Source: a virus
Virus record (IMG/VR): IMGVR_UViG_3300031877_000007
Location: 1 to 29,023 of that record
DNA length: 29,023 bases
Strand: one strand, 5' to 3'
Shown here: in pieces, positions 5,569 to 21,755 of the stretch
Position numbering within the stretch: position 1 is the stretch's first letter
Layout of the letters: the number at the start of each line of letters is the position of its first letter
Position numbers and translations under genes: made by a program
The notes under the pieces: model-generated
Told to the model about the DNA's origin: nothing
The model's database searches: none
What the model saw: only the letters and a program-made list of their open reading frames with translations

Positions 5569-5621
5569 CATCCTAGAGATTTTGACAAATTGAAAAATTC
5601 GATTAGAGGAGGTGAGTATTG

Positions 5622-6920
5622 ATGAATGAAGAGAACCGCGTCAAAGCGGCCATAGGTAATCTACCGAGACCTCTAGGATCAACCCTAGAGAAATTTCCAA
5701 ATGTTGTCGGCTTCAGCGCAGACCCTCAGAAAAAGATCGTCGCCGGGAAGGAGACTAAAATTCTCTGCGTCAGAATCTACGTCTCGAAGAAAGTCCCCGA
5801 AGCAGAGCTCAAGCCTGAATCGATAATTCCTAAAAAACTGTTCGACGTTCCAACCGACGTTGTAGAGTATGGTGTCCCCGTTTTTCAGCAGGACCCCCAC
5901 AAGAGCCGCGCCGAAGTCATTCAAGGAGGAATAAGCTTCGTCCACTACAAATGCACCGCCGCAACCCTCGGTATAGTTCTCCCGGACAAAGATACAAACG
6001 ACCCATTCGAGGTCAGCAATACGCATGTTATCTACAACCTAGACAATCCAGGAGGCGAATGCTCAAAGATAGGCGACCCTCAACTTCAACCGGGTCCAAC
6101 AGACGGCGGAAAGGACCCAGCAGACCAAGTAGGGAATGGAGACAAGTATATTCCATTCACAGCAAGCCTACCGGGGGGAATCGCAGATGCGGCCCGAGCT
6201 AAATGGAATGGACAGAGAAAGATTGAGCTTGCTACAATCCTCCATGCCGGACGATTGAAAGGAGTCAAAGAGCCGAAAGTCGGCATGATTCTGAAAGGAT
6301 GCTGCCGCAACGGAGATTTCAAAGTCAAGATCACAGACATCAACGCATCTGTCAGAGTAAGTGGTCTCGGATGCAAATTGAGAGATCGTTATGCAATACT
6401 CCAGAAACAAGTCATGTATGAGCCCGGATTAGGCGGAGGCTCCTCAGGGACGTGCATGTATAGCGAAGATGGATATGCAGTCGCCCTCAATAGTTTCGGC
6501 ACAGCAGGAGTAGGTGAAGGCAAAGGAGGCGGAGGATGGTTCAGCGAAATCATGGAACCTCTCAATCTGAAATGGCCGGAAGAAGGCCCACCGCCACCTG
6601 CAAAGAAGTATCTTCCAAGCCGATCTGAGCCTGTGAAGATTCGATGGATGAAACCTCAAGAGGGAATCGATACAACTGTAAGTCTTCACGCCGATAAGAA
6701 TGAACATACCATAGGTGAGAAGGCTGTCCTAGATGGAGTCCTGTTAGAGTTAGCCGAGGGAAAGCCGATAAACCCGATTCCCAATCAGCCCATCTATCTA
6801 CTGAAGAACGGTCAACAGATCGATATGAAGTACACGAGTTCCGATGGAGCTTTCAAGTTTGAGATAACAGAGAATGAAGAGCAGGAACCTAGTTACGAGG
6901 CTGATTTCAAAGGAACCTGA
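5622..6920 (+). CDS. Nal1-like trypsin-fold serine protease with C-terminal Ig-like domain
   Basis: ATG 5622 is preceded by AGGAGGTGA with six bases between. Residues about 100-315 follow the Nal1-like trypsin-fold pattern: TLGIVLPDK, the histidine motif VSNTHVIYN (His about 135), LQPGPTDGGKDPADQVG, the aspartate motif GGIADAARA (Asp about 189), and the serine motif GLGGGSSGT (Ser about 275). Residues 352-432 look like a bacterial Ig/transthyretin-like fold (TIGEKAVLDGVLLE...NQPIYLLKNGQ...TSSDGAFKFE). That domain stops abruptly at YEADFKGT, where related folds usually add more strands, so it may be truncated. There is no signal peptide. A role in cell entry, release or host interaction is possible but unproven. 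An attachment-site candidate begins 45 bases downstream. Confidence 0.75.
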   Translation: MNEENRVKAAIGNLPRPLGSTLEKFPNVVGFSADPQKKIVAGKETKILCVRIYVSKKVPEAELKPESIIPKKLFDVPTDVVEYGVPVFQQDPHKSRAEVIQGGISFVHYKCTAATLGIVLPDKDTNDPFEVSNTHVIYNLDNPGGECSKIGDPQLQPGPTDGGKDPADQVGNGDKYIPFTASLPGGIADAARAKWNGQRKIELATILHAGRLKGVKEPKVGMILKGCCRNGDFKVKITDINASVRVSGLGCKLRDRYAILQKQVMYEPGLGGGSSGTCMYSEDGYAVALNSFGTAGVGEGKGGGGWFSEIMEPLNLKWPEEGPPPPAKKYLPSRSEPVKIRWMKPQEGIDTTVSLHADKNEHTIGEKAVLDGVLLELAEGKPINPIPNQPIYLLKNGQQIDMKYTSSDGAFKFEITENEEQEPSYEADFKGT

Positions 6921-9360: not shown

Positions 9361-9975
9361 ATGCCTAAGACTTGTAAGATCTGCTTTCACCCTCGAAGAG
9401 CCGATATCGAGAGAACTTATGCTGACGGAACCTCTTGGAAAGCCGCTATCGACAAGTTCAAAGTTTCTAAAAACGGATACTACCGTCATCGACTTCACTA
9501 TCTTTTGAATCGGGATGAGATCAAGGCTAGTGAAGTCACCCGGCATATCGATGAGATGACTGAGCTTCTGAAGACCTTCAATCTAGTCAACAGCACTGTC
9601 AACCGTCTACTCAGCCTCCCAGTCACTAAGGAGATTCTGCCTGCTACGATCCGGGCGTTGACTCTACGGACTCGGATCCTGGAAACCTTTCTTAAGGCAA
9701 GAGGGGTCCTGGAGCCTCCTAAAATCACTGAGATTCATGTGGAACGCGAATACACCATTCTCGCAAACTTGATTCTGGATCTTCCTGAGAAATGGAGGAC
9801 TGAAATTGTCGATAAGCTCAAGCGGGAAGCTGAGCGGGAGCAAGCTGCTGCAGGTACTTCAAGCGGAGGAGGTCAAACGGGATCCTCTAGCTCTAGCGAG
9901 ATGCCAATTCCCTCAGATGGATTGGGAAAACTGGCATCTAAAACTGATGGCGGACAAGATTCTAAACGAGCTTAG
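9361..9975 (+). CDS. terS: Terminase small subunit
   Basis: The N-terminus CKICFHPRRADIERTYADG, then WKAAIDKFKVSKNGYYRHR, is the zinc-knuckle plus helix-turn-helix typical of small terminase subunits that recognise the viral packaging site. A helical oligomerisation core (residues about 60-125) follows. I prefer ATG 9361, eight bases after GAGGT; ATG 9346 would give an ATGA overlap with the micro zinc-finger gene. The last 55 residues are Ser/Gly-rich and low complexity, exactly where the gene overlaps terL in another frame by 170 bases. Confidence 0.7.
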   Translation: MPKTCKICFHPRRADIERTYADGTSWKAAIDKFKVSKNGYYRHRLHYLLNRDEIKASEVTRHIDEMTELLKTFNLVNSTVNRLLSLPVTKEILPATIRALTLRTRILETFLKARGVLEPPKITEIHVEREYTILANLILDLPEKWRTEIVDKLKREAEREQAAAGTSSGGGQTGSSSSSEMPIPSDGLGKLASKTDGGQDSKRA

Positions 9976-11311
9976 GGTGCTGCTACTCCTCCCTAGATTC
10001 GGCGGAAAATCAACGCTTACAGGCACAATCATTCCACCTTGGCTTATCGGCAGAGATCCGGAGAACGAGTCGATCTCATTCATAACTCATACGCAGGGAT
10101 ATAGTGAAGCTTTCGTCCGAGCAACTAAAGACATCATCAACTATAATCCCTACTACCGCACAGCCTTCGGACGACTTGAAACGATCAAATCCAGCCAGAA
10201 CGAGGTTGTCTTAAAGCGGAAGATCGAGAAGAAGATTCCCAGCCTCTCAGGGCTCGGCGTCGGCTGCGCAACCCTTGGGCCTCATCCTAGAAGATGGATC
10301 ATCGACGACGTGATAGATCGAAGGAAAAGCATCAGCGAAGCTCAGACAAGAGATATCAAAGACTGGTTCAAGTACGAGCTTCTTCCAGCAGTCGGGAGAG
10401 ACCAATATGTTACCGTCGTAGGAACTAGATGGAGGTTCAACGACCTCTACGGCGACATCATCAAAGAGGGAAAGTTCAAAGTCATTCACGTCGAGGCGAT
10501 CGGTTCCGAGAAGACAGAGCTCGGGAAGACATATCTCGATCAAAGTTACTGGAGGAGGATCTGGCCGCTAGAAGCCTTACTCGAAAAGAAAGCGGAGATC
10601 GGAATTCACGCCTGGATGTCTCAGTTTCAAAATGATCCCAGCTTAGAAGAAGGCGCAACCTTCAATCCGAAATGGCTGAAATATTACGGTCCAGGAGAGG
10701 AGGCGCAGCTTCCTCCTCGAGAGAAACTTCGAATCTTTCAAGGCGTCGATCCTGCTATCGGTAAGAAGTCCACCGCTCACTACTTTGTGATCGTAACGAT
10801 CGGAGTCTCCGAGGAAGGCCACATCTATCTCCTCGACTATTATCGTGAACACCTAGATCCTGCAGCTCAAATCAAAGCGATTGAAAATCAAGGAACCGCT
10901 TGGAAACCTGAAGTCATCGGCATCGAATCAGTCGCCTATCAGGAAGCTCTCGTTGAATTCGTGAAGCCCTTAATGCTTCCAACGATAGGGATTCCTCAGA
11001 GTCAAGATAAGATCCTTCGAATCCAGGGACTCGCTCCCTACTTTGAGGGAGGGCGCGTCTTCATCTTGAGAATTCATGAGCAGTTCATAATCGAGTACAG
11101 TCAATTTCCGAGAGGAGAATCTGAGGTCGACGTATTAGATGCTTTCCAGATAGCTGTCCGATGTGCTACTTCTCATAAGCGAGGTGGAGGAAGGCTTCCA
11201 GCTGAATCTGTCTCACGAGCACCGCCGTGGCAGCCTCCGGGCGAAGAGATACCTTCAGTCGATTGGAGAGAATGGATTGAACATCCTGAGAGGGATCCGG
11301 GTTTAAGATGA
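9806..11311 (+). CDS. terL: Terminase large subunit
   Basis: The packaging motor ATPase and nuclease. Motifs in order are the Walker A-like PRFGGKST (residues 63-70), Walker B WIIDD (164-168), coupling motif VVGTRW (204-209), and the RNase H-fold nuclease acids in FQGVDPA (Asp 315), IGIES (Glu 374) and VDVLDAFQ (Asp 445). The start is TTG 9806 with GGAGG seven bases before it, inside terS. The segment AEEVKRDPLALARCQFP, read within the overlap, is typical of terminase N-termini, so the overlap is real. It is joined to the portal gene by an ATGA overlap. Confidence 0.93.
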   Translation: MSISSSGKLSGSKLLQVLQAEEVKRDPLALARCQFPQMDWENWHLKLMADKILNELRVLLLLPRFGGKSTLTGTIIPPWLIGRDPENESISFITHTQGYSEAFVRATKDIINYNPYYRTAFGRLETIKSSQNEVVLKRKIEKKIPSLSGLGVGCATLGPHPRRWIIDDVIDRRKSISEAQTRDIKDWFKYELLPAVGRDQYVTVVGTRWRFNDLYGDIIKEGKFKVIHVEAIGSEKTELGKTYLDQSYWRRIWPLEALLEKKAEIGIHAWMSQFQNDPSLEEGATFNPKWLKYYGPGEEAQLPPREKLRIFQGVDPAIGKKSTAHYFVIVTIGVSEEGHIYLLDYYREHLDPAAQIKAIENQGTAWKPEVIGIESVAYQEALVEFVKPLMLPTIGIPQSQDKILRIQGLAPYFEGGRVFILRIHEQFIIEYSQFPRGESEVDVLDAFQIAVRCATSHKRGGGRLPAESVSRAPPWQPPGEEIPSVDWREWIEHPERDPGLR

Positions 11312-12627
11312 GCAAGCTTCCAGATCGAATCCTTAGAAGATTCGGGCTTCAACGCTTTCAGAAGCCTGAAGTGAAGAAGATTGAGCCTGAAGAGATAGAG
11401 AAGGAAGCGGGACTTTTCAAGAGCCCTTGGATGATAGGGCTTGAAGACTACAATCCGGATGAAGTTGGCCTTAGCAAATATAAGGAGATGATCAAGGACG
11501 CCCAAGTGAAAGCTGGCTTAGACCTCATCGAGATGGCTATTCTCTCGAAGCCTTGGCACATCTATCATTCTGACTCAGAGGTAGCCAAGTGGACTGAGCA
11601 GGTCCTTGAGAATCTGAAGGGCCCGGATTTCACCCAAGCTCTCCACGAAATGCTTTCAGCCATCTGGGCCGGCTTCAGCGTCATCGAAGTGGTGTGGGGT
11701 TACGATAAAGAGAATCAGAAAGTCGTCATTCGCCCTCGAACCGGATTGAAGGTTCTGGATCCTGAAACGATCACTTTCAAAACCTCGGCGAAAGGCGCTC
11801 TTGAAGAGATTAAGCAGACGATGGGTGCAGAACCTGTCACACTTGATCCGGAGCGAACATTCATCTGGAGTTTCCGGAAGAAGTTCGGCAACTACTATGG
11901 GGAATCCATTCTCCGACCTGTCTACACGAACTGGTATGCGAAAAGATGGTTGATGGGCTTCTCCAACATCTACATGGAGCAGTTCGGCTCACCGATCTAC
12001 GTTGGAACGGTGAAGGAGCCAGGTGACATAGATGCGATGGAGAAGACTCTGAAAGGTCTACGGGTCTCCGGAGTCGCAGTTCTCCTTGAAGGCTGGAGGA
12101 TCGACGTTCTAGAGGCTAAGTCTCGAGGAGACGTTCCCTTCCTCGATTACATCAGATATCAAGACGAAATGATAATGCGTCGCCTACTCATCGGCAGCCT
12201 AGTCCTGACGAAGGAGAAGGGAGGAGCTTTAGCATTAGGCCAAGTCCACTTCGACGTCTTCCTAATGAGTATCGAGGCGATGAGAGGAGACTTGGTCAGC
12301 CTCATCAACGCCATCGTCAATAAACTCATCTCCTTCAACTTTGAGACGGAGGCTCCAGCTCGATTCGCATTCGAACCCCTCACTGAAGAAGATCTTGAAC
12401 GGCTCGCAAGCGTCTTCACATCTCTAATTGAGGCTGAAGTCATAGCGCCAGATGAATCTTGGATTAGAGAGCGCCTAGGTTTCCCAGCTAAACCTACGCC
12501 GGAAGAGATAGCGACTGAGAAGCAGCCTCTGACATCTGAGGAGGAGAAGGAAGTGAAACCTTCGAAGGAAGCTGCCGGAGAGCCGAAGAAGATGGCTAGG
12601 AGACCGCCGAGAATCTGGTGGCCATAG
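11308..12627 (+). CDS. Portal protein, Mu gp29-like (DUF935)
   Basis: 439 residues with the DUF935 landmarks: VKAGLDLIEMAILSKPW near the N-terminus, a middle FGNYYGESILRPVYTNWYAKRW, then EQFGSPIYVG and a helical C-terminal clip region. The portal is the dodecameric ring at one capsid vertex through which terminase pumps DNA. Immediate placement after terL supports this. The C-terminal 45 residues are Glu/Lys/Pro-rich and probably disordered. Confidence 0.88.
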   Translation: MSKLPDRILRRFGLQRFQKPEVKKIEPEEIEKEAGLFKSPWMIGLEDYNPDEVGLSKYKEMIKDAQVKAGLDLIEMAILSKPWHIYHSDSEVAKWTEQVLENLKGPDFTQALHEMLSAIWAGFSVIEVVWGYDKENQKVVIRPRTGLKVLDPETITFKTSAKGALEEIKQTMGAEPVTLDPERTFIWSFRKKFGNYYGESILRPVYTNWYAKRWLMGFSNIYMEQFGSPIYVGTVKEPGDIDAMEKTLKGLRVSGVAVLLEGWRIDVLEAKSRGDVPFLDYIRYQDEMIMRRLLIGSLVLTKEKGGALALGQVHFDVFLMSIEAMRGDLVSLINAIVNKLISFNFETEAPARFAFEPLTEEDLERLASVFTSLIEAEVIAPDESWIRERLGFPAKPTPEEIATEKQPLTSEEEKEVKPSKEAAGEPKKMARRPPRIWWP

Positions 12628-12826: not shown

Positions 12827-13555
12827 TTGGAGAAGAAGCCTTTAGATCTCATTGAACATCAAGAGGATTTAGAGAGAGCGGTCGGCAAGATAGCTCGAAT
12901 CCGCTATTACGACAGCTTTTCCTTCGATGAAACTAGACTTGAGGAAGCTAAGAAACAAGAGTCCATCATCCTCACAGCGATCGGCCGGATAGTGGCGATT
13001 CGAGAACACGATCTCCTCATAGTCCTCGAGCAGGCTGAAGGAGTAGAAGAGAAACCTCAACTTTCAGGTGTAGGAATTCTAAAGTCGTCGATCATCTTTC
13101 CAGTTGAAATCCTCAGCGATGTTCCGCCAGCAGAATCCTTAGTGCTCTCAGCTGATAAAGCGATGAAAGCTCAATCGCCGATCGGGAAGCGGATCTACGA
13201 CGGCCTCCCGAATGAGATCCTACTCCTCGAAGAATTCGTAACCGGCGTAGGAAGCATCGTTGAGGCCGACCGGCAGCCTCACGACATAGACATTCTCTAT
13301 CGCCAGGACACTAGGAATCAGTATCTTGAACGGAAAGTTGGAGAGCATATCCCTCAAGATCTCAGGCCCTACGTCCACATCATCTATGATTCTAGAGGGA
13401 AGCATGGTCCCGGCTTACCTTTCTACGATCTCGTGCTCAAGAAGAGAGTTAAGTTAGAAGTGCTGCCTCACGCCTACAAGACTCAACTCTTCAAACCCAT
13501 TCCGATGGCTAAGCCGGTTAAACTTGACTCAGTGAAGTTGGAAGAGCTCTCATAG
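12827..13555 (+). CDS. Predicted polymerase-beta-fold nucleotidyltransferase (242 aa)
   Basis: Residues 137-158 read FVTGVGSIVEADRQPHDIDI, the GS...D-x-D signature of the polymerase-beta nucleotidyltransferase superfamily: Gly142-Ser143 for the triphosphate and Asp153/Asp155 for metal. A third acid is probably in LPFYDLVLKK. The N-terminal 110 residues are an unrecognised strand-rich domain. The C-terminus (LPHAYKTQLFKPIPMAKPVKL) recalls tails of ligase-linked proteins. The start is TTG 12827, one base after the previous stop. It lies directly before the DNA ligase, so it may add nucleotides to ends to be sealed, which is inference. Confidence 0.6.
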   Translation: MEKKPLDLIEHQEDLERAVGKIARIRYYDSFSFDETRLEEAKKQESIILTAIGRIVAIREHDLLIVLEQAEGVEEKPQLSGVGILKSSIIFPVEILSDVPPAESLVLSADKAMKAQSPIGKRIYDGLPNEILLLEEFVTGVGSIVEADRQPHDIDILYRQDTRNQYLERKVGEHIPQDLRPYVHIIYDSRGKHGPGLPFYDLVLKKRVKLEVLPHAYKTQLFKPIPMAKPVKLDSVKLEELS

Positions 13556-13608: not shown

Positions 13609-15027
13609 TTGACTAGATGGATCGTCGAGAAGATCCCTTTAGACGCTAAGAGATTCATGATTCATAGGCGACTCGATGAAGCGCGAGCCTTCGGCGAGAA
13701 TGGCGCAGAAATCTCTCTCAGCCCTGAGATTCTGAATTCAATAACCGGAATCAAGGAACCTTCGAAATTCATCATAGACGGCCATCTCGATCAAGAAGGC
13801 TTCTACCGGATCTTCGACATTTTATGGTGGGAGAACACTGAACTTTTCGATTCTCCTCTTGAGCATCGGAAAGGCTTCCTCTCGAAGTGGCCTGAAACCT
13901 CCCACATCAAGATTCTACCTTACTATCGCTGCAACGATATCTCTGAGATCAAGAATGCCATCGTTGAATTAGGATCCTGCGGAACCGATGAGATCTACCT
14001 GATCCGAAGGGCAGAAGGATTCTATCCACTCGACGGGAAGGCTGAGGATTGGCATTACTTTCAATGTCCTAGAATGATGGCCTCAGCCGGCTCAGATAAG
14101 CGTATTCAGGAGCTCGTGGACTCCGGGAGATGGCCGGAGCTGAAGGCTGAAGAACGATTTGAACTCATGATCCAACGTAGAAGCCTGGAGGCTCTCTATC
14201 CTTTCTCACCGCTGAAGACCTCGAAGAAAGGCTATCGAATTCAAGAGCTCTGGACCTTAACCGGCGTCAGAGGCTTAATGCAGGAATGGTTCGAAGGTCC
14301 AGCGACCGTTGCAGTTGAAGTGAAGTTCGACGGCTTCAGAATCGTCATCCATAAGAAGGAAAAAGAAGTTAGAATCGACACGGAATCCGGAGACGACATC
14401 TCAAGGAATCTACCAAACCTCTCAGCTGACGTTAAGACCTTGATGTGCGAGAGCTGCATCCTCGACAGCGAACTGGTCCCTTACGATGAAGAGGGGAGAG
14501 CTTTAGGTCGGAGGAAGGGGGCTGAAGCCAGAGGCAGCAAAATCATCGACGACTCCCACTGGATCGCCCATGTCTTCGACCTGCTCTACCTAAACGGGAG
14601 AGATCTTCATCGAGAACCCTACTCCAGGCGCCGAGAACTGCTGAAAGGCTTAGAGCTTCCAGCCGTCGATCTCCCTAAGATTCCTCCGAAACCGAAGTTC
14701 CATCTCCATGAGAATTCAGTTCACTTAGCGAAGAATGTGGATCAAGCCCTCCGCTTTGCAGGAGAAGTCTCTAAGGTCAAATACTCTGAGGGAGCGATGT
14801 TCAAGCTCTGGGACGGAGACTATCCGCTCAACGGAACCACTTTAACCTGGGCGAAGATGAAGAAGAGCTTCGAGATCGACTGCATCCTCCTCGCCAAGTT
14901 TCCAGCCGTCCACAAAACGGGACCGGAGAAAGGAAAGCCGATTGAAGGCAACTACGTCTGGCTAGCTGGAATCGGTCCACTCGACGAATCTCAAATCCCT
15001 GAGGACGGGAAGGCGCATAAGATCTAA
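13609..15027 (+). CDS. ATP-dependent DNA ligase with degenerate second ligase-like domain
   Basis: Residues 230-430 hold all nucleotidyltransferase motifs of ATP-dependent ligases: motif I VEVKFDGFR (Lys239 forms the AMP adduct), III CILDSELV, IIIa HVFDLLYLNGRDL, IV SEGAMFK and V WAKMKK. Residues 1-150 look like a decayed copy: HRRLDEAR, IIDGHL, YRIFDILWW...EHRK, AEGFYP, EDWHYF, with the motif I lysine missing. The protein ends at WLAGIGPLDESQIPEDGKAH, where related ligases continue into an OB fold. A matching OB fold opens the 1297-residue protein at 15721. The start is TTG 13609 with only a weak upstream site. Confidence 0.85.
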   Translation: MTRWIVEKIPLDAKRFMIHRRLDEARAFGENGAEISLSPEILNSITGIKEPSKFIIDGHLDQEGFYRIFDILWWENTELFDSPLEHRKGFLSKWPETSHIKILPYYRCNDISEIKNAIVELGSCGTDEIYLIRRAEGFYPLDGKAEDWHYFQCPRMMASAGSDKRIQELVDSGRWPELKAEERFELMIQRRSLEALYPFSPLKTSKKGYRIQELWTLTGVRGLMQEWFEGPATVAVEVKFDGFRIVIHKKEKEVRIDTESGDDISRNLPNLSADVKTLMCESCILDSELVPYDEEGRALGRRKGAEARGSKIIDDSHWIAHVFDLLYLNGRDLHREPYSRRRELLKGLELPAVDLPKIPPKPKFHLHENSVHLAKNVDQALRFAGEVSKVKYSEGAMFKLWDGDYPLNGTTLTWAKMKKSFEIDCILLAKFPAVHKTGPEKGKPIEGNYVWLAGIGPLDESQIPEDGKAHKI

Positions 15028-15740
15028 TGAGCGAAACAGAATCCGCTTACTTCGATGAAAGCTGGAGAACTGCCACCGAGTTTAAACCTCCGGCTTGGGG
15101 AGTTGAACCCGACCCTGAGGTCCCTGAGAAGTTTGAGCAGCGAGCTGAAGCCCGAGACGCCTTGAAGGATCACGACACTATTCTTGAGCTTTATGCTGGA
15201 AGAGGCTTCCTGACTGAACGAGTCTATAAGGGCCATGGGAAGCTGCTTGTGCTCGTTGACGATGAGCAGAGATTATTGAAGCGGGCGAAGGAGAAGGTTC
15301 GAGGTCAGAAAGCCTACCTCTATTACATGGATAATATGCGGTTTCTTGATCGATATGTCCGCCGCTACCCTGAGATCACTCTCGTTGACTTCGATGCTTA
15401 CGGCAGCCCTGCCTTTCAGATTCAAAGGTTCTTCGCTCGATATCCAATCAACCATCGCATAGTTATCTCGATTACCGATGGAATGATGACCAGCTGGCCT
15501 ATTCTCAGCAAGGACTGGGAGGGGCGATACTTTCGTCCGAAGAAGCACTTGGGAACAGAGGATTTTCCCAGCTTCATAGATTCCCTGATGCAGACTATGG
15601 CTAAGCAACATCACTTCGACTTCGAGAGGATAAACGGAGTCTGGAAGGATCGAGCAGCCACCTACTACTGCAGCTACCTCATCTCACCTCCTGAAGACTC
15701 AACATCGAAGGGAGAGAAGATTGAGAGAAGTAGAGATTGA
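15027..15740 (+). CDS. Trm1-like SAM-dependent methyltransferase (237 aa)
   Basis: Motif I is ILELYAGRGFLTERVY (residues about 52-67), followed by LVLVDDEQ for the ribose acid. Motif IV is VDFDAYGSPAF, very like the DxDPFGSP catalytic loop of the tRNA guanine-26 methyltransferase Trm1. The protein is shorter than Trm1 and lacks its C-terminal RNA-binding domain, so the target could be RNA or viral DNA. ATG 15027 overlaps the ligase stop by one base (TAATG). It stands between the ligase core and the OB fold that seems to belong to it. Confidence 0.7.
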   Translation: MSETESAYFDESWRTATEFKPPAWGVEPDPEVPEKFEQRAEARDALKDHDTILELYAGRGFLTERVYKGHGKLLVLVDDEQRLLKRAKEKVRGQKAYLYYMDNMRFLDRYVRRYPEITLVDFDAYGSPAFQIQRFFARYPINHRIVISITDGMMTSWPILSKDWEGRYFRPKKHLGTEDFPSFIDSLMQTMAKQHHFDFERINGVWKDRAATYYCSYLISPPEDSTSKGEKIERSRD

Positions 15741-18700
15741 GGATGCTGACTACGTCCGCTTCAAAGGCAAATGGTTCAGCATCCTTGGGAAAACATTCGT
15801 CACAGCGGATCCTCTCAAGATCGGCGATATCGCCAGAATCAAATGCGATCAGATCCGAAAGATAAACCCAACCCTCTACAAATGGATCATCGCGAAAGTT
15901 CTCGAGGTGAAACCTGAACCCGGAAGCATGGACACTCTCGCTGTGGCTGAAGAGATCGCTCGCGCTACGAAAGAGATAGTTGAAGAAGAGAAGAAGAGAG
16001 CTGAAGGCTTCGAGTCCTACGTCTCAGTCAAGAAGGCTGAATTAATCTGGTTTCTAGCGGAGCTTCCTTGCAGTGAGGAGGAACCGCTTAAACTTCAGAT
16101 GGCCGACCTACTGGTCTACCCAGATGAAAGCAAGACATGGCTATTCGTAGTTCAAGCTCACATACGGGGACTTTCAGTTCACGGCGACAATCGAAACGAG
16201 ATCTCAGACACGAAGCTAGTCGGATGGACTTGGAGCATCATCAAATCCCTGTTGCCGGAGATGCTCGCTCAACACGTCACTCCTCAAGAGCTCTCTGAAG
16301 CCGATGTAAAGCTTTCAAAGGAGGAGTTGCTGAAACTCGAAATCGATGAGATGTCGGAGAAGATCCCAGACCCGATTAAACAGAAGCTCAGCAGCATCGT
16401 CGATGCCATGTCTCCAAGCGAACTTGAAAAGATTATTCGGGAACGCATCCCTGAAATCAAAGCGTTCCTCTCGGATCCAACTAACAAGATCTTCACGACT
16501 ACGAAGGCTACGGAACCTCATGAATGGTTGACATTCCGAGGGAAAGTTGAGCCGGGAAGAGTTGGAGCTACCAAAGAGCATCCCGGTTTCTTCATCATCC
16601 TCGACAAGGGTAGAGTTGAATTCGGCTGCCAGAAACCTTATGCTCATGAATATTGGTTCCATGGAGATGTCTTCAATGGACACTTCTACATCAGGCAGAT
16701 TGCACGTCGACCTGAATGGGAGAAAGCCGGTCGCCGCGGTTTAGTCTGGATGACCTTTAGAGCCCGCGATGACGCTCCACCATACGTTCTCTCATCCCGG
16801 GCTGTCGAAGAAGGTTGGATTCCTCCTAAAGGAGTCAGCTGTCTCCCAGAGAAGATTCGGAAGCAGATTCCAGATCAATACAGGTATTGGTTGAAGCCAG
16901 AGCCCAAGAAGACTCGGGATGCACTTGTAGCCACATTGAGGAAGAAGGAGCTTGTCTTAAAGTTCGCGGCGCCGAAACTTCAGTTTCAAGTGAAACGATT
17001 CTGGTGGAAGGGGCCGACTCAAATTCGAGGTATGCCCCAGATCTTCTGGGCGATTATCCTCCACGACGGCGGAGACGTCAAGGAGTTCTGGCATTTCGAT
17101 GAAGACCCAACTGAGCATTTAGGCATCTTGGCTACGGTTGAAAGATTCCGAGACCCGAAACTCATTGAAGAGCAAGGTGAATTTCATAGAGGCCACGCCT
17201 TAAACCCTAACTTGAAGCTGCCTCTCTACTATGACACAATCGATGAAGGGCCTGCGGAGATCATCGCTGAATCTTCAAGCCTATTTCGAGTTAGATTGAA
17301 GGGAAAACGGCTCTCCGGACTTTTCGTCTTCCTCCGGGAAGATCCGAAGAGCGAGATGTGGAAGTTTCTGAAATCGGAGCTGCCGAAGCCGAAGATGGAG
17401 GCTTCTGAACTTGAAGGCGAAGAACCTCAAGGCTTCCTCTCATTCATAACGGATATCGAAGGATTCAATCCCTCGAAGGCTCCAGATACCGAGCTTGCGC
17501 GAAAGAGGATGAGGGATGATTGGAGGCTCACGATGGCTTGGTGGTCTTCCAAACGCCAAGGGAAACCGATTCAACACTCCTACGATCTGATCTTCCAGAC
17601 TGCATTGAACCTCGCCCGGGAGCTCATCAAGCGGAAATGGATTAGATTCCATCCTGAAGAGTACAAGGAGCATTCGAAAGAGCTCTTCGAGAAAGTCGTC
17701 AAGCAGCTTGAGAAAGAAGGCATAGAGATTCCGATCGCGGATGAAGAGACTGCTAAACGAAGCTTCAGCTCCCCAGAGATTAAGGTCATTCAAGTCGAAA
17801 ACATAGCTGTAGCATCAGGCCTCGCCATTAAAGAAGGCGAGATGATCGGCATGGATCTGAAGCCGACTTTCTTTTCAGCCGATATAATCAATCGGACCTT
17901 CGGACAGATGGCTGGAAACCCGATCTCTCTCACGCATGGAGAGAGGAAAGGCGACGTCGTCGGCTACGTTGAACGAGTGAAAGCCGGAGAAGGCCGAGGA
18001 TGGATAGATCGAGGAATCGTCTGGGACCAGGAGACTATTCCACTTCTACTTCAACAGCAGAAAGGCACAATCCCACCTTTAGGCTGGTCAGTAGAGGTCT
18101 TCCCCAAAACAGTTTGGGATGAAGTGAATCAACGAGACATGGTCGTCGACGCCAGATGGGTTGGAGTCGCCTTAGTTCCAAATCCAGCTTGCGGCAAAGA
18201 ATGCCTAGTAGCAGACGTGAAACTGGAGAAGGCTTCCGGCGGAAAGATTGAGGAACTTGAAAGAAGATTCGGGGAACCTCTCGAAAACTTTCTTAATCGC
18301 CGATATCTTCAAGATCAAGCGAGCACCGAGACCCTAGCTGAAGAATGCGGAGTCTCCAAACAGACGCTCCTCAGATGGTTTGAGAAATTCAACATTCCAT
18401 CTCGAACTCCCTCCGAAGCTGCTTCGATCAGATGGGCTAGGGAAGAGACGGATAAACGGAAGTTCTCTGAACCAATCCGAGTAACAGTTCTCGGAACTGG
18501 CTGTGAAACCCAGATCCCAAAGAAAGACTGCCGCTGCCCTCAATGCCGGGAAGCCCGAGAAGGCGGCCCAAGCAAACGAGGATCCTCCAGCCTCCTAATT
18601 GAAGCTGACAGTGACCAAATCATCATCGACGCAGGACCCGACATCCTCAATCAACTCTCCCAGTTGAAACTTCAGCCTTCAACCATCATTCTCACTCACG

Positions 18701-19614
18701 CTCATCCAGATCACGCAGGCGGATTGAAGGATCTCAAATTCAAAGACTTGAAGATCTATGGAAGCCGAGACACTTGGACTCGCATCAAGAACCTAAGCGA
18801 GATGCCTTTCAAGAAACTCGTCTTCACCCCGGAACGGGCCTTCCGAATCGGGAAGATCAGAGTTCTCCCCTTCCCGGTTGAACATTCAATCGTCGCTCCA
18901 GCAGTAGGATTCAAAATCTCCATCGACGAACGATCTCTAATCTATGCTCCAGACGTCTTGGGGATTCCTAATCGAATAGAAATCCTCCAGGATGTCGATT
19001 GCTACATTGGAGACGGCAGCTCCCTCTACCGAGATCTTGAACGTGAAAGAGAAGGGAAACATTTCGGACACGCCTCCATTAAGAAGCAGATCACTGAATG
19101 GGGACATGAAGCAGAGATTCCGGTGAAACTCTTCACGCATATCGGGCATCTTGAACTGAACCATGCGTCATTACAGGAGAAAGTAAAAGAACTCTATCAG
19201 GGAGCCGAAGTTCTCAAGGATGGGGATAGCTTCAATCTCTCAGGCTCAAACCCAGGCCTCTACCTCGTAGCTCCTCACGCAGAGATGCTTTGGTCCGGAG
19301 AGAAGAAGATGATTGTGAAAGCCAGACCTTTCACGCGCTATTCGAAGCAAGCGATCCCATGGTGTGACCGAAACCTATGCTACGGCTACTTGGTTATGGG
19401 GCTGCCTGAAGGCCCCTTCAAAGCTGACATAGTCCTCGAGAAGTTCAGGGATCTCCATAGGATCAGCGATAAAGAGTGGGCTGAATGGTGGCCTAAAGCC
19501 GAGCAGGTTTGGACTTATCGACCGAAGATCGTTAAACGATTCGATCCGCCGAAGAAGTGGCGTTGGGTTCCGTTCACTCAAGTCTTCATCCCCGATGTAA
19601 TTCTCCTAGAGTGA
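15721..19614 (+). CDS. Giant fusion: OB fold, LigD-like phosphoesterase (two copies), capsid protease, HTH, metallo-beta-lactamase, ASCH-like
   Basis: One 1297-residue frame starting at TTG 15721 after GGGAG. Domains seen: residues 10-68 an OB fold like ligase C-termini (ILGKTFVTADPLKIGDIARI); 128-365 a LigD-type 3'-phosphoesterase with H147, H154, D156, R158 and E160 in H...HGDNRNE, then FRGKVEPGRVGAT; 420-555 a related copy without those residues; 690-835 a capsid-maturation protease with His739 (THGERKGDVVG) and Ser790 (GWSVEV); 850-905 a helix-turn-helix; 918-1172 a PhnP/RNase Z-like metallo-beta-lactamase with HAHPDH (993-998), D1078 and H1140, and a CxCxxC knuckle at 937-942; 1178-1292 an ASCH-like domain. 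It is placed where the head protease belongs, before scaffold and capsid. Self-cleavage into separate enzymes is likely but inferred. Confidence 0.8.
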   Translation: MREVEIEDADYVRFKGKWFSILGKTFVTADPLKIGDIARIKCDQIRKINPTLYKWIIAKVLEVKPEPGSMDTLAVAEEIARATKEIVEEEKKRAEGFESYVSVKKAELIWFLAELPCSEEEPLKLQMADLLVYPDESKTWLFVVQAHIRGLSVHGDNRNEISDTKLVGWTWSIIKSLLPEMLAQHVTPQELSEADVKLSKEELLKLEIDEMSEKIPDPIKQKLSSIVDAMSPSELEKIIRERIPEIKAFLSDPTNKIFTTTKATEPHEWLTFRGKVEPGRVGATKEHPGFFIILDKGRVEFGCQKPYAHEYWFHGDVFNGHFYIRQIARRPEWEKAGRRGLVWMTFRARDDAPPYVLSSRAVEEGWIPPKGVSCLPEKIRKQIPDQYRYWLKPEPKKTRDALVATLRKKELVLKFAAPKLQFQVKRFWWKGPTQIRGMPQIFWAIILHDGGDVKEFWHFDEDPTEHLGILATVERFRDPKLIEEQGEFHRGHALNPNLKLPLYYDTIDEGPAEIIAESSSLFRVRLKGKRLSGLFVFLREDPKSEMWKFLKSELPKPKMEASELEGEEPQGFLSFITDIEGFNPSKAPDTELARKRMRDDWRLTMAWWSSKRQGKPIQHSYDLIFQTALNLARELIKRKWIRFHPEEYKEHSKELFEKVVKQLEKEGIEIPIADEETAKRSFSSPEIKVIQVENIAVASGLAIKEGEMIGMDLKPTFFSADIINRTFGQMAGNPISLTHGERKGDVVGYVERVKAGEGRGWIDRGIVWDQETIPLLLQQQKGTIPPLGWSVEVFPKTVWDEVNQRDMVVDARWVGVALVPNPACGKECLVADVKLEKASGGKIEELERRFGEPLENFLNRRYLQDQASTETLAEECGVSKQTLLRWFEKFNIPSRTPSEAASIRWAREETDKRKFSEPIRVTVLGTGCETQIPKKDCRCPQCREAREGGPSKRGSSSLLIEADSDQIIIDAGPDILNQLSQLKLQPSTIILTHAHPDHAGGLKDLKFKDLKIYGSRDTWTRIKNLSEMPFKKLVFTPERAFRIGKIRVLPFPVEHSIVAPAVGFKISIDERSLIYAPDVLGIPNRIEILQDVDCYIGDGSSLYRDLEREREGKHFGHASIKKQITEWGHEAEIPVKLFTHIGHLELNHASLQEKVKELYQGAEVLKDGDSFNLSGSNPGLYLVAPHAEMLWSGEKKMIVKARPFTRYSKQAIPWCDRNLCYGYLVMGLPEGPFKADIVLEKFRDLHRISDKEWAEWWPKAEQVWTYRPKIVKRFDPPKKWRWVPFTQVFIPDVILLE

Positions 19615-20387
19615 CGTTACCGTTACTTGAGTTCCGTTTGGCTTATATGAGGTCGCAAGCGGCTCAGCTCACTCAGGAAAATGGAAGTGCCATCCAATTG
19701 AGTAAGCAAGAAGGTACACAAGAAGAGATTCTAGAGTTCAAGGAGAATCCAGAGAATCCAGAAGGCACAGAGCAGAAGACAAAAGGCCAGTATCCTCCAG
19801 TTGGACCATACGGATACCCGAAAGTTCCATGCCGCAGAGTGAATACTGAGAAATGCCCGGCCTCCGATTACGGTTTCCCCGACGCTGAGAAAGGGATACC
19901 GGATGCAGCGAAGACCTGTCCTCTTCTGAAAGCCTACGCATGCCCCTTCTTGTACAAAGCTCCGGCCGCCAAGGGTGCGGAAGGTGAAGTCGAGAAGAAG
20001 ATCGCGGAAGCTGTTAAGAAGAAGGAGCAGGAGTACCAAGGCACAGTTGAGAAGCTTGAGAAACGGATCGCTGAACTCGAAGATGAAGCGAAGAAGCGAG
20101 CTGCCGAAGGAACCACTGAGAAACTCATGGCTGAAGGCCACATAGCTCCAGCGCAGAAAGATTCTGTAACGAAGCTGCTTCTCAGCCTTCCACCGCAACT
20201 CGTTGAATCCACCATCTCCATCTTCGAGAAGCAGAAGCTCGTTCCCGTCGGAGAGGAGACTGGTAAACAGGAGACGAAGCGGGAAGGCGAGTTCAGTCAA
20301 ACCGACGACGCTAGAATAGCGAAGGAGCAGGGAATCGACACGCTTGTTGACGAACGAGGAGTTCCGAAGCAAAAGGAGGTAAAGTAG
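19611..20387 (+). CDS. Capsid scaffold-like protein (258 aa)
   Basis: The GTG at 19611 overlaps the protease stop as GTGA; ATG 19647 is an alternative. Residues 60-120 hold four cysteines in PCRRV, KCPAS, TCPLL and ACPFL, possibly a metal site. Residues 130-175 are a long coiled coil (EVEKKIAEAVKKKEQEY, VEKLEKRIAELEDEAKKR), and the C-terminal part has LMAEGHIAPAQKDSV and IFEKQKLVPVG. Helical, charged proteins just before the capsid gene act as internal scaffold and are usually removed by the head protease. The end of the gene contains AAGGAGGT, which serves the next gene. Confidence 0.65.
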   Translation: MTLPLLEFRLAYMRSQAAQLTQENGSAIQLSKQEGTQEEILEFKENPENPEGTEQKTKGQYPPVGPYGYPKVPCRRVNTEKCPASDYGFPDAEKGIPDAAKTCPLLKAYACPFLYKAPAAKGAEGEVEKKIAEAVKKKEQEYQGTVEKLEKRIAELEDEAKKRAAEGTTEKLMAEGHIAPAQKDSVTKLLLSLPPQLVESTISIFEKQKLVPVGEETGKQETKREGEFSQTDDARIAKEQGIDTLVDERGVPKQKEVK

Positions 20388-20798: not shown

Positions 20799-21755
20799 AT
20801 GCCAGAAGGAATTTTCACACAAGACAATGTTGACACTCGAATGCTCTACAAAGAGTTCGTGAGAGGCATCGAGATCTACAATGAGAAAGAGTGGGCTGTA
20901 ATCTCGAAGTTCATCCGCTCAACCGAGAAGGAGTCCGTCAAAGTTTGGCAGAGAAGCATGGAGTTCACGAGAGGCGCACAAGGCTACCCGGCAGATATGC
21001 AGAAGATTGAAGCCTTAGAAATCGGTGTTCCATTGGATACCTTTGATCTAGGGTACGGTTTCACGCTTGAAGCGATCCAAGACTCAACTGCAGATGAGTT
21101 GAAGGAGACTCAAGCTGAAGCCCTTAGAGCGGATCAACGTCTGCTCATGAAGATCTTCTGTTCGAAATGCTTGGTGCCCGGTGCATCGGGAGCTTCCCGA
21201 GGTTTCTGGGACAGCTTCCAGACAAAGGCTCCTCCACCGTATCGAGGAAACACCTTCGCTGCTAACCATGACCACTATAATGTGAGCGGAGCCGCCACCG
21301 TCCAGTTAGCCGACTTGACATCCCTCAAGAAGCATATTCGAGAACACGGATACATGGGCGACCTCTACTTGTTCATCAACAGCGGAACCGTGAAGGCTTT
21401 CGAGGATCTAGCAGGCTGGACCACAGCTATGAGCGCCACATCGATCATCGAAACCGTTGCGACTCTCGGATTGAGAGCCGTAACCAAATTCAATGAGTTC
21501 ATCATCGTCATCGAGGATTGGGTTCCCGACGGCTATCTATTCGGAGTCGAAGGTCAGATCCTGCCGGTCACCATGAGGGAACCTGTTAATCCTCAAGCGA
21601 CAGGCTTAAAGCTGTACCGTGGTCCACACGACGAGTATCCGCTGGTTGAAGCATACTATCGAAGACGCTGCGGAATGGAAGTCGTCCATCGAGGAGCAGG
21701 CGCCGTAACTCAGATAACAGCGGGATCCTGGGTAGATCCAACATTCACATTCTAG
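20799..21755 (+). CDS. Major capsid protein, HK97 fold
   Basis: 318 residues in the position of the major capsid protein, after the decoration protein. An N-terminal helix (MLYKEFVRGIEIYNEKEW) is followed by the spine-like region, a P-domain helix with SLKKHIREHGY, the A-domain strands (LYLFINSGTVKAFEDL, IIVIEDWVPDGYLFG) and a C-terminal VEAYYRRRCGMEVVHRGAG. The layout resembles capsid proteins of archaeal tailed viruses. GGTGAT precedes the start. There is no obvious long delta domain, which agrees with a separate scaffold gene. Confidence 0.82.
   Translation: MPEGIFTQDNVDTRMLYKEFVRGIEIYNEKEWAVISKFIRSTEKESVKVWQRSMEFTRGAQGYPADMQKIEALEIGVPLDTFDLGYGFTLEAIQDSTADELKETQAEALRADQRLLMKIFCSKCLVPGASGASRGFWDSFQTKAPPPYRGNTFAANHDHYNVSGAATVQLADLTSLKKHIREHGYMGDLYLFINSGTVKAFEDLAGWTTAMSATSIIETVATLGLRAVTKFNEFIIVIEDWVPDGYLFGVEGQILPVTMREPVNPQATGLKLYRGPHDEYPLVEAYYRRRCGMEVVHRGAGAVTQITAGSWVDPTFTF

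Follow-up and report, generated by a model that had tools for sequence, protein, structure and literature searches.

A long open reading frame in an uncultivated virus, P0001, puts domains of DNA end repair and a head maturation protease into one chain, and the question it raises is what such enzymes are doing on a head protein. The sequence studied is an IMG/VR virus record, a metagenome contig of 29,023 bases, called the window below when the whole stretch is meant. P0001 encodes, in order, the second half of an OB fold, two phosphoesterase domains of the LigD type (PE1 and PE2), a domain termed DDWR, the head protease, an HTH, a metallo-beta-lactamase (MBL) and an ASCH domain. Coordinates are given in Table 1.

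Table 1. Coordinates and supporting evidence for the features of the window.
Feature	Position	Strand	Evidence
Terminase large subunit	9806..11311	+	phrog_38 8e-79
Portal, Mu type	11308..12627	+	PF06074 2.7e-60
Nucleotidyltransferase-like P0007, residues 126-232	12827..13555	+	BLAST to ANMV-1 ligase protein; HMM
ATP-dependent DNA ligase P0004	13609..15027	+	PF01068 7.6e-33
Methyltransferase gene P0005, between the two OB-fold halves	15027..15740	+	PF00398 1.9e-6
P0001, giant ORF, 1297 aa, TTG start	15721..19614	+	in-frame coding throughout
Second half of ligase OB fold, P0001 residues 1-70	15721..15930	+	alignment with ANMV-1 ligase protein
PE1, LigD-type 3'-phosphoesterase domain, residues 126-363, S-V-H-G-D-N-R-N-E motif	16096..16809	+	family alignment, PDB profile matches, PF13298
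PE2, LigD PE fold without catalytic residues, residues 403-556	16927..17388	+	AF2 and VIA-align
DDWR domain, residues 586-670, undescribed, helical in model	17476..17730	+	common to relatives
Head maturation protease domain, DUF2213-type, residues 702-825	17824..18195	+	window-free profile E 7.1e-12
HTH, residues 855-905	18283..18435	+	phrog_8446 1.2e-6, phrog_7545 7.7e-5
PhnP-like metallo-beta-lactamase, residues 918-1172	18472..19236	+	PF12706 1.1e-19
ASCH domain, residues 1177-1297	19249..19611	+	11-member profile
Scaffold gene P0006, C-terminal half of Mu-like protease-scaffold protein as its own gene	19647..20387	+	phrog_976 237-387/415, 3.1e-7
Major head protein	20799..21755	+	phrog_3990 5.2e-45

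Domains of P0001 and the genes beside it

The preliminary description of this DNA took P0001 to be a single long frame, and the frame is indeed intact. It is open over 1297 codons, and its codon usage, with the neighbouring genes as reference, fits its own frame and not the other two in 13 of 13 successive 100-codon segments, which gives no hint of a frameshift within it or of a stretch that does not code. A GGGAG sequence stands before the TTG start, and the frame shares 20 bases with the methyltransferase gene upstream. Separate genes could have been joined into one long frame by a fault of assembly or sequencing, and the exact architecture of P0001 is known in one copy only, on a metagenome contig. 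The in-frame codon usage throughout disfavours such an artefact, as do the ORFs that join PE or other module domains to a protease in 11 other loci, and we regard it as very improbable.

P0001 was also treated as self-contained, with an OB fold at residues 1-70. An OB fold is present there, but just its second half; the first half ends P0004, the ligase ORF upstream. Among phage records, tblastn gave one strong match, the ANMV-1 virus, to P0001 residues 22-553 (E 1e-52, 29-30% identity), and the same residues align with residues 399-864 of the ANMV-1 ligase protein (E 2.4e-61). Because the matching part of the ANMV-1 protein follows its adenylation domain, P0001 starts partway through the OB fold. 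In P0004 the adenylation domain (residues 206-421) looks active, with the K-x-D-G of motif I present as K239-F-D-G, and residues 228-421 match LIG1 structures (E 3e-11). The ligase of the window therefore has its adenylation domain on one chain, while the C-terminal OB fold that a ligase carries on that same chain is divided between P0004 and P0001. As the two chains share this fold, the ligase and the PE/protease chain should assemble together. The methyltransferase gene P0005, which separates the two halves, overlaps both neighbouring genes at its start and stop, as read from the sequence, and has no relative that we could find in the other loci described below. P0007 aligns with residues 41-125 of the ANMV-1 ligase protein (E 6.9e-7), in the nucleotidyltransferase-like region with which that protein begins, and a nucleotidyltransferase (NTase) of this type is fused to the ligase in most relatives. 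Residues 66-149, at the start of P0004, form a second, degenerate ligase-like adenylation domain.

The LigD-like 3'-phosphoesterase and its second copy, both noted at the outset, hold up, on different kinds of evidence. PE1 keeps S-x-H-x-D-x-R and the wider signature H147...H154-x-D156-x-R158-x-E160, with H147, H154, D156 and R158 in place. When a nine-member PE1 profile was compared with the PDB, the top four matches were all LigD PE domains (3p43, E 0.0036; 3p4h, E 0.0099). Pfam LigD_N (PF13298) matched three of the nine family members (best 2.8e-4); P0001's own PE region gave no PF13298 match up to E 5, and the PE of a related locus (L015) scored 18 bits against a curated cut-off of 31.1. 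As that cut-off is not reached, the viral PE is a distant relative of the family and not a member by this standard. The fold of PE1 is assigned from sequence profiles, its predicted model being poor. Structure prediction, suggested earlier as a check, succeeded in part: AlphaFold modelled residues 1-565 well at 419-554 but weakly elsewhere, and its model of the protease region was poor. The well-modelled segment covers PE2. Residues 419-555 match 3p43 with Z 16.2 (rmsd 2.3, 120 residues aligned), followed by 3p4h (15.1), 3n9b (13.4), 3n9d (13.3), 5dmp (12.4) and 2lj6 (11.8); these best matches are all LigD phosphoesterases, and the score falls to 5.0 after them. The catalytic residues are gone, and PE2 of P0001 is predicted to be catalytically dead. 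Across the PE2 positions, a viral profile of P0001 residues 1-565 independently finds cellular LigD PE genes that stand alone in the genomes of archaea, and two of these genes were checked as PF13298.

The head protease was the hardest domain to place. Pfam and PHROGs scans of the region gave nothing useful, hhalign with a shallow alignment was uninformative, and small DUF2213 profiles matched the P0001 protease with E above 0.2. A profile that contained the window sequence was circular and was dropped as evidence. Only a larger profile, seeded with L016 and built without the window, settled the assignment. It comprised 21 sequences, among them the PF09979 proteins of L003 and L037, and P0001 residues 702-825 are its sole match among the 116 ORFs of the window. 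Alignment shuffles gave Z 6.5, 6.1 and 4.4 against three relatives, the last a PF09979 protein, and control segments were mostly below 2, with one at 3.0 and one at 4.1. The THG and GWSVE motifs pointed out in the preliminary description contain His739 and Ser790, which we propose, from the profile alignment, as putative catalytic residues. The P0006 scaffold gene resembles the scaffold half of the L005 protein (Z 4.2). Its similarity to the C-terminus of the L037 protein is not significant (Z 1.3), so the term scaffold in L037 rests on position and composition. A second protease-like gene of the window (5619-6920; phrog_20754, 1.3e-31) lies outside the head block.

The remaining domains were identified more directly. 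The DDWR domain had been missed; it also occurs in L003, L015, L035, L036 and other loci. The HTH and the PhnP-like MBL are as first described. The HTH resembles that of phage HNH proteins. The MBL has both the H-x-H-x-D-H motif and the MBL fold: its intact HAHPDH occupies residues 993-998 (nucleotides 18697-18714), and its best structural matches are of the PhnP family (6b9v, E 2.1e-17; 1zkp; 3g1p). The ASCH-like domain has no Pfam match when searched alone, and is recognised through an 11-member profile that matches TTHA0113 (1wk2/2dp9; E 0.001) and cellular PF04266 proteins.

Relatives of the module and fusions to head proteins

Relatives were sought in viral contigs and in the genomes of one archaeal phylum. 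The exact fusion was seen once, but 67 loci share a pool of domains (MBL, ASCH, DDWR, NTase, ligase, PE1 and PE2) arranged in many different ways, in single ORFs, the longest of 1808 aa, or divided among a few genes. In 34 of the 67, at least three module domains share an ORF that is 1000 aa or longer. Protein-pattern scans with P0001, the major head protein or the protease alone found no relatives in the viral collection, so nothing close to this virus emerged from it. Three of the module contigs belong to genomes with the label Methanosarcinales and a fourth to one labelled Euryarchaeota; the identifiable relatives come from archaea, and the virus that encodes P0001 is tailed and probably infects an archaeon.

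The active-site motifs are retained in most loci (S-x-H-x-D-x-R type in PE1, 42/49; K-x-D/G-G in the ligase, 40/50), indicating enzymes that are mostly maintained. This conservation suggests that PE1 and the ligase are working end-cleaning and sealing enzymes. L036 (2135-7081, 7036-10077) has Pfam intein/Hint matches in its ligase and, by reading, a similar insertion in PE1; L016 (3175-5163) has an intein-like insertion in the ligase, also by reading. At L037 (6873-10625) the ligase start and a 1041-aa OB-PE-protease-DDWR-NTase frame lie in the same frame with a single TAG between them. This TAG may be decoded as an amino acid by the host, or may genuinely terminate translation.

The module mostly adjoins terminase and portal genes. 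A portal gene lies within the stretch read in 52 of the 67 loci, and the portals adjoining the module were confirmed against PHROGs in seven. Beyond adjacency, a module domain is fused to a head protease in 12 loci, and the proteases belong to three Pfam families: XkdF/S78_2 (L010, L013, L090, L097, L100, L128), S78 (L122, L126, L127) and the DUF2213 type (L037 and the window; L038 has the same look but no Pfam match). Pfam confirmed PF14550 in L010 and L013 and PF09979 in L037, as well as PF04586 in L036, the seed for S78; the others were assigned by profiles built here. The records of L010 and L013 have no S78_2 match other than the fused protease. When mapped on a ligase tree of 50 rows, protease fusion requires at least seven changes of state, a count that could be inflated by incomplete loci scored as unfused. 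The window sits on a long branch of this tree and its neighbours are not protease-fused, so its fusion probably arose separately. A second kind of fusion joins ASCH to the C-terminus of the portal in eight loci (L077, L078, L086, L087, L094, L099, L107, L123), usually with a DDWR-NTase-ligase-PE gene directly following. The portal assignment is supported in one of these fusions by PF06381 (3.8e-7, just under the cut-off) and, weakly, by a PDB portal.

These fusions bear on the possibility that the protein is a late polyprotein that is never delivered. In the producing cell, ahead of packaging, the enzymes would then seal nicks in replicated viral DNA and repair ends for the terminase, and the protease fusion would reflect procapsid recruitment or an accident between adjacent genes. 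The position of the module beside terminase and portal fits such a role, and so does the protease's having its own gene in most of the 67 loci. If location in the capsid were irrelevant, one would hardly expect repeated fusion to the protease and, as a distinct kind, to the portal C-terminus, and we consider this explanation unlikely. The preliminary description proposed that the enzymes are tied to the head protease and may travel with the head. The protease fusions, the portal fusions and the position in the head-gene block all favour this; gene order together with recurrent fusion to two head proteins makes association with the capsid likely.

Several other genes near the module deserve mention. 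Similar genes of a PAPS reductase-type-like kind adjoin it in L003 (3958-4701) and L078 (6776-7432), judged by eye. L012 (6461-8023) encodes a MuF-like head protein with an extra C-terminal domain and an HNHP motif, again by eye. In ANMV-1 (L002, 5868-9368) a cysteine-rich protein of 1166 aa (AJP62007.1) directly follows the ligase gene, and by eye its end carries a motif like the C-terminus of MuF head proteins.

Comparison with described systems

The preliminary description knew of no virus protein with this domain order; it overlooked two precedents. The first is the class of polyvalent proteins, multidomain proteins encoded near virion genes and proposed to be injected, some of which end in assemblin-like peptidases with a role in virion assembly (Iyer et al., 2017, PMC5512222). 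P0001 resembles them in being giant and in combining many unrelated domains in one chain beside virion genes. Polyvalent proteins also include peptidase domains proposed to process them and fusions to virion head proteins (MuF, portal). They differ in that they are scarce in archaea, nearly all large examples being bacterial, and in that the assemblin-like peptidase is always C-terminal, whereas the protease is internal in the window and in L037 (PMC5512222). The text of that paper contains no 'DNA ligase', 'ASCH' or 'XkdF' and no passage on LigD phosphoesterase. The second precedent is the ANMV-1 protein AJP62006.1 (KP703175), annotated 'ATP-dependent DNA ligase', which already combines NTase, ligase, OB, PE1 and PE2 in one protein. 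Unlike P0001, it has no protease, HTH, MBL or ASCH. ANMV-1 is a virus of uncultured methane-seep archaea, and its paper does not mention the ligase.

The module shares with LigD and the archaeal NHEJ phosphoesterases (3p43, 3p4h, 3n9b, 5dmp) the PE fold, the H...H-x-D-x-R of PE1 and the link to an ATP-dependent ligase. It differs in having one dead PE copy and in being tied to a head protease. A complete NHEJ system was considered and set aside: neither Ku (PF02735) nor the LigD primase-polymerase (PF21686) had a match in 13 virus records, all of which may be fragments. The host could supply Ku. Two further systems are closer to the protease. D12 methyltransferase-head protease fusions in phages (PHROG 1530, 13242) likewise place a nucleic-acid enzyme on an XkdF-type protease, but a single enzyme, without the ligase/PE module. 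Mu-type protease-scaffold proteins (phrog_976) have the protease upstream of the scaffold domain, beside the portal and major head protein, as here; the window splits protease and scaffold over two ORFs, and HTH, MBL and ASCH lie between them.

The general kind of protein is thus already known. A search of the open-access literature found no description of a ligase-PE-NTase-ASCH-MBL module, and there seems to be no account of the DNA-end-sealing module, of its apparent distribution among archaeal viruses or of the portal fusions. What is new here is this set of domains, its many copies in archaea-linked viruses, the internal protease, the portal-ASCH fusions and the ligase divided over two genes.

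A possible role for the module

That the module is a head-associated polyvalent system we regard as highly probable. The fuller statement, that P0001, P0004 and P0007 make up a DNA-processing toolkit tied to head assembly with P0001 as a polyvalent head protein, seems to us evenly balanced. Starting from the domain identities, the gene order and the recurrent protease and portal fusions, we infer the following course. P0001 would be translated late, with the head genes, and the scaffold P0006 would draw it into the procapsid by way of its protease domain. The protease would mature the head and cut the linkers, leaving enzyme fragments inside that would exit with the DNA at infection. PE1 could then clean damaged 3' ends, the nucleotidyltransferase and the MBL could adjust the ends, and the ligase could seal nicks or ends, while ASCH, together with methyltransferases in the relatives, might recognise or mark nucleic acid.

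We slightly favour packaging and delivery of the module, and the recurrent protease and portal fusions give good reason to expect packaging. The propeptides released by the head protease of one studied giant phage mostly exit the capsid as it matures (PMC10052503); the enzymes could likewise be lost and not kept, which counts against packaging. Counting further against the model are the separate protease in most loci, the lack of any match to Ku or LigD polymerase in the 13 records, the dead PE2, and the absence of ligase motif I from 10 of 50 loci and of the MBL motif from 12 of 28. The first proposal for P0001, that genome ends are mended or circularised on entry, is plausible; that sealing or repairing incoming DNA would be the main job of the module is put forward tentatively.

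ASCH, MBL, the methyltransferases and the NTase also fit RNA repair or counter-defence. The module might be packaged and injected mainly to undo or block host defence and not to process genome ends. It could repair cut RNA or DNA, use the PhnP-like MBL to remove cyclic nucleotides and ASCH to recognise modified bases, and counter restriction by methylation. The domain set is broad and shuffled, like that of published polyvalent proteins that counteract CRISPR and restriction (PMC5512222); in L010, L013, L036, L110 and other loci the module is accompanied by D12 DNA methyltransferases; and the structural matches of the MBL include PhnP, tRNase Z and also Apyc1 (7u2s, 7u2r). The near-constant core, however, is a ligase and a PE1 with conserved active-site motifs, which points to nucleic-acid sealing, and the ligase matches DNA ligases and not RNA ligases. 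We find a role chiefly in counter-defence somewhat unlikely.

The boldest version of the end-sealing model is that archaeal tailed viruses carry in the capsid a head-linked end-joining kit, freed by the protease, that would seal the genome on entry without Ku. The kit would comprise the ligase, the 3'-phosphoesterase, the nucleotidyltransferase and the MBL nuclease, covalently linked to the head. We hold this version to be doubtful.

More broadly, the data suggest that these viruses may pack a repair or defence-evasion toolkit inside their heads. The module extends polyvalent proteins to archaea-linked viruses, where they have been described as scarce, and offers a testable case of virion-carried repair enzymes with the head protease or the portal as carrier. 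The recurring fusions provide a simple rule for predicting which viral enzymes enter heads. The module is present at 67 loci, of which the one in a named virus has no annotation beyond DNA ligase, and it also gives a name to many giant uncharacterised proteins of uncultivated viruses.
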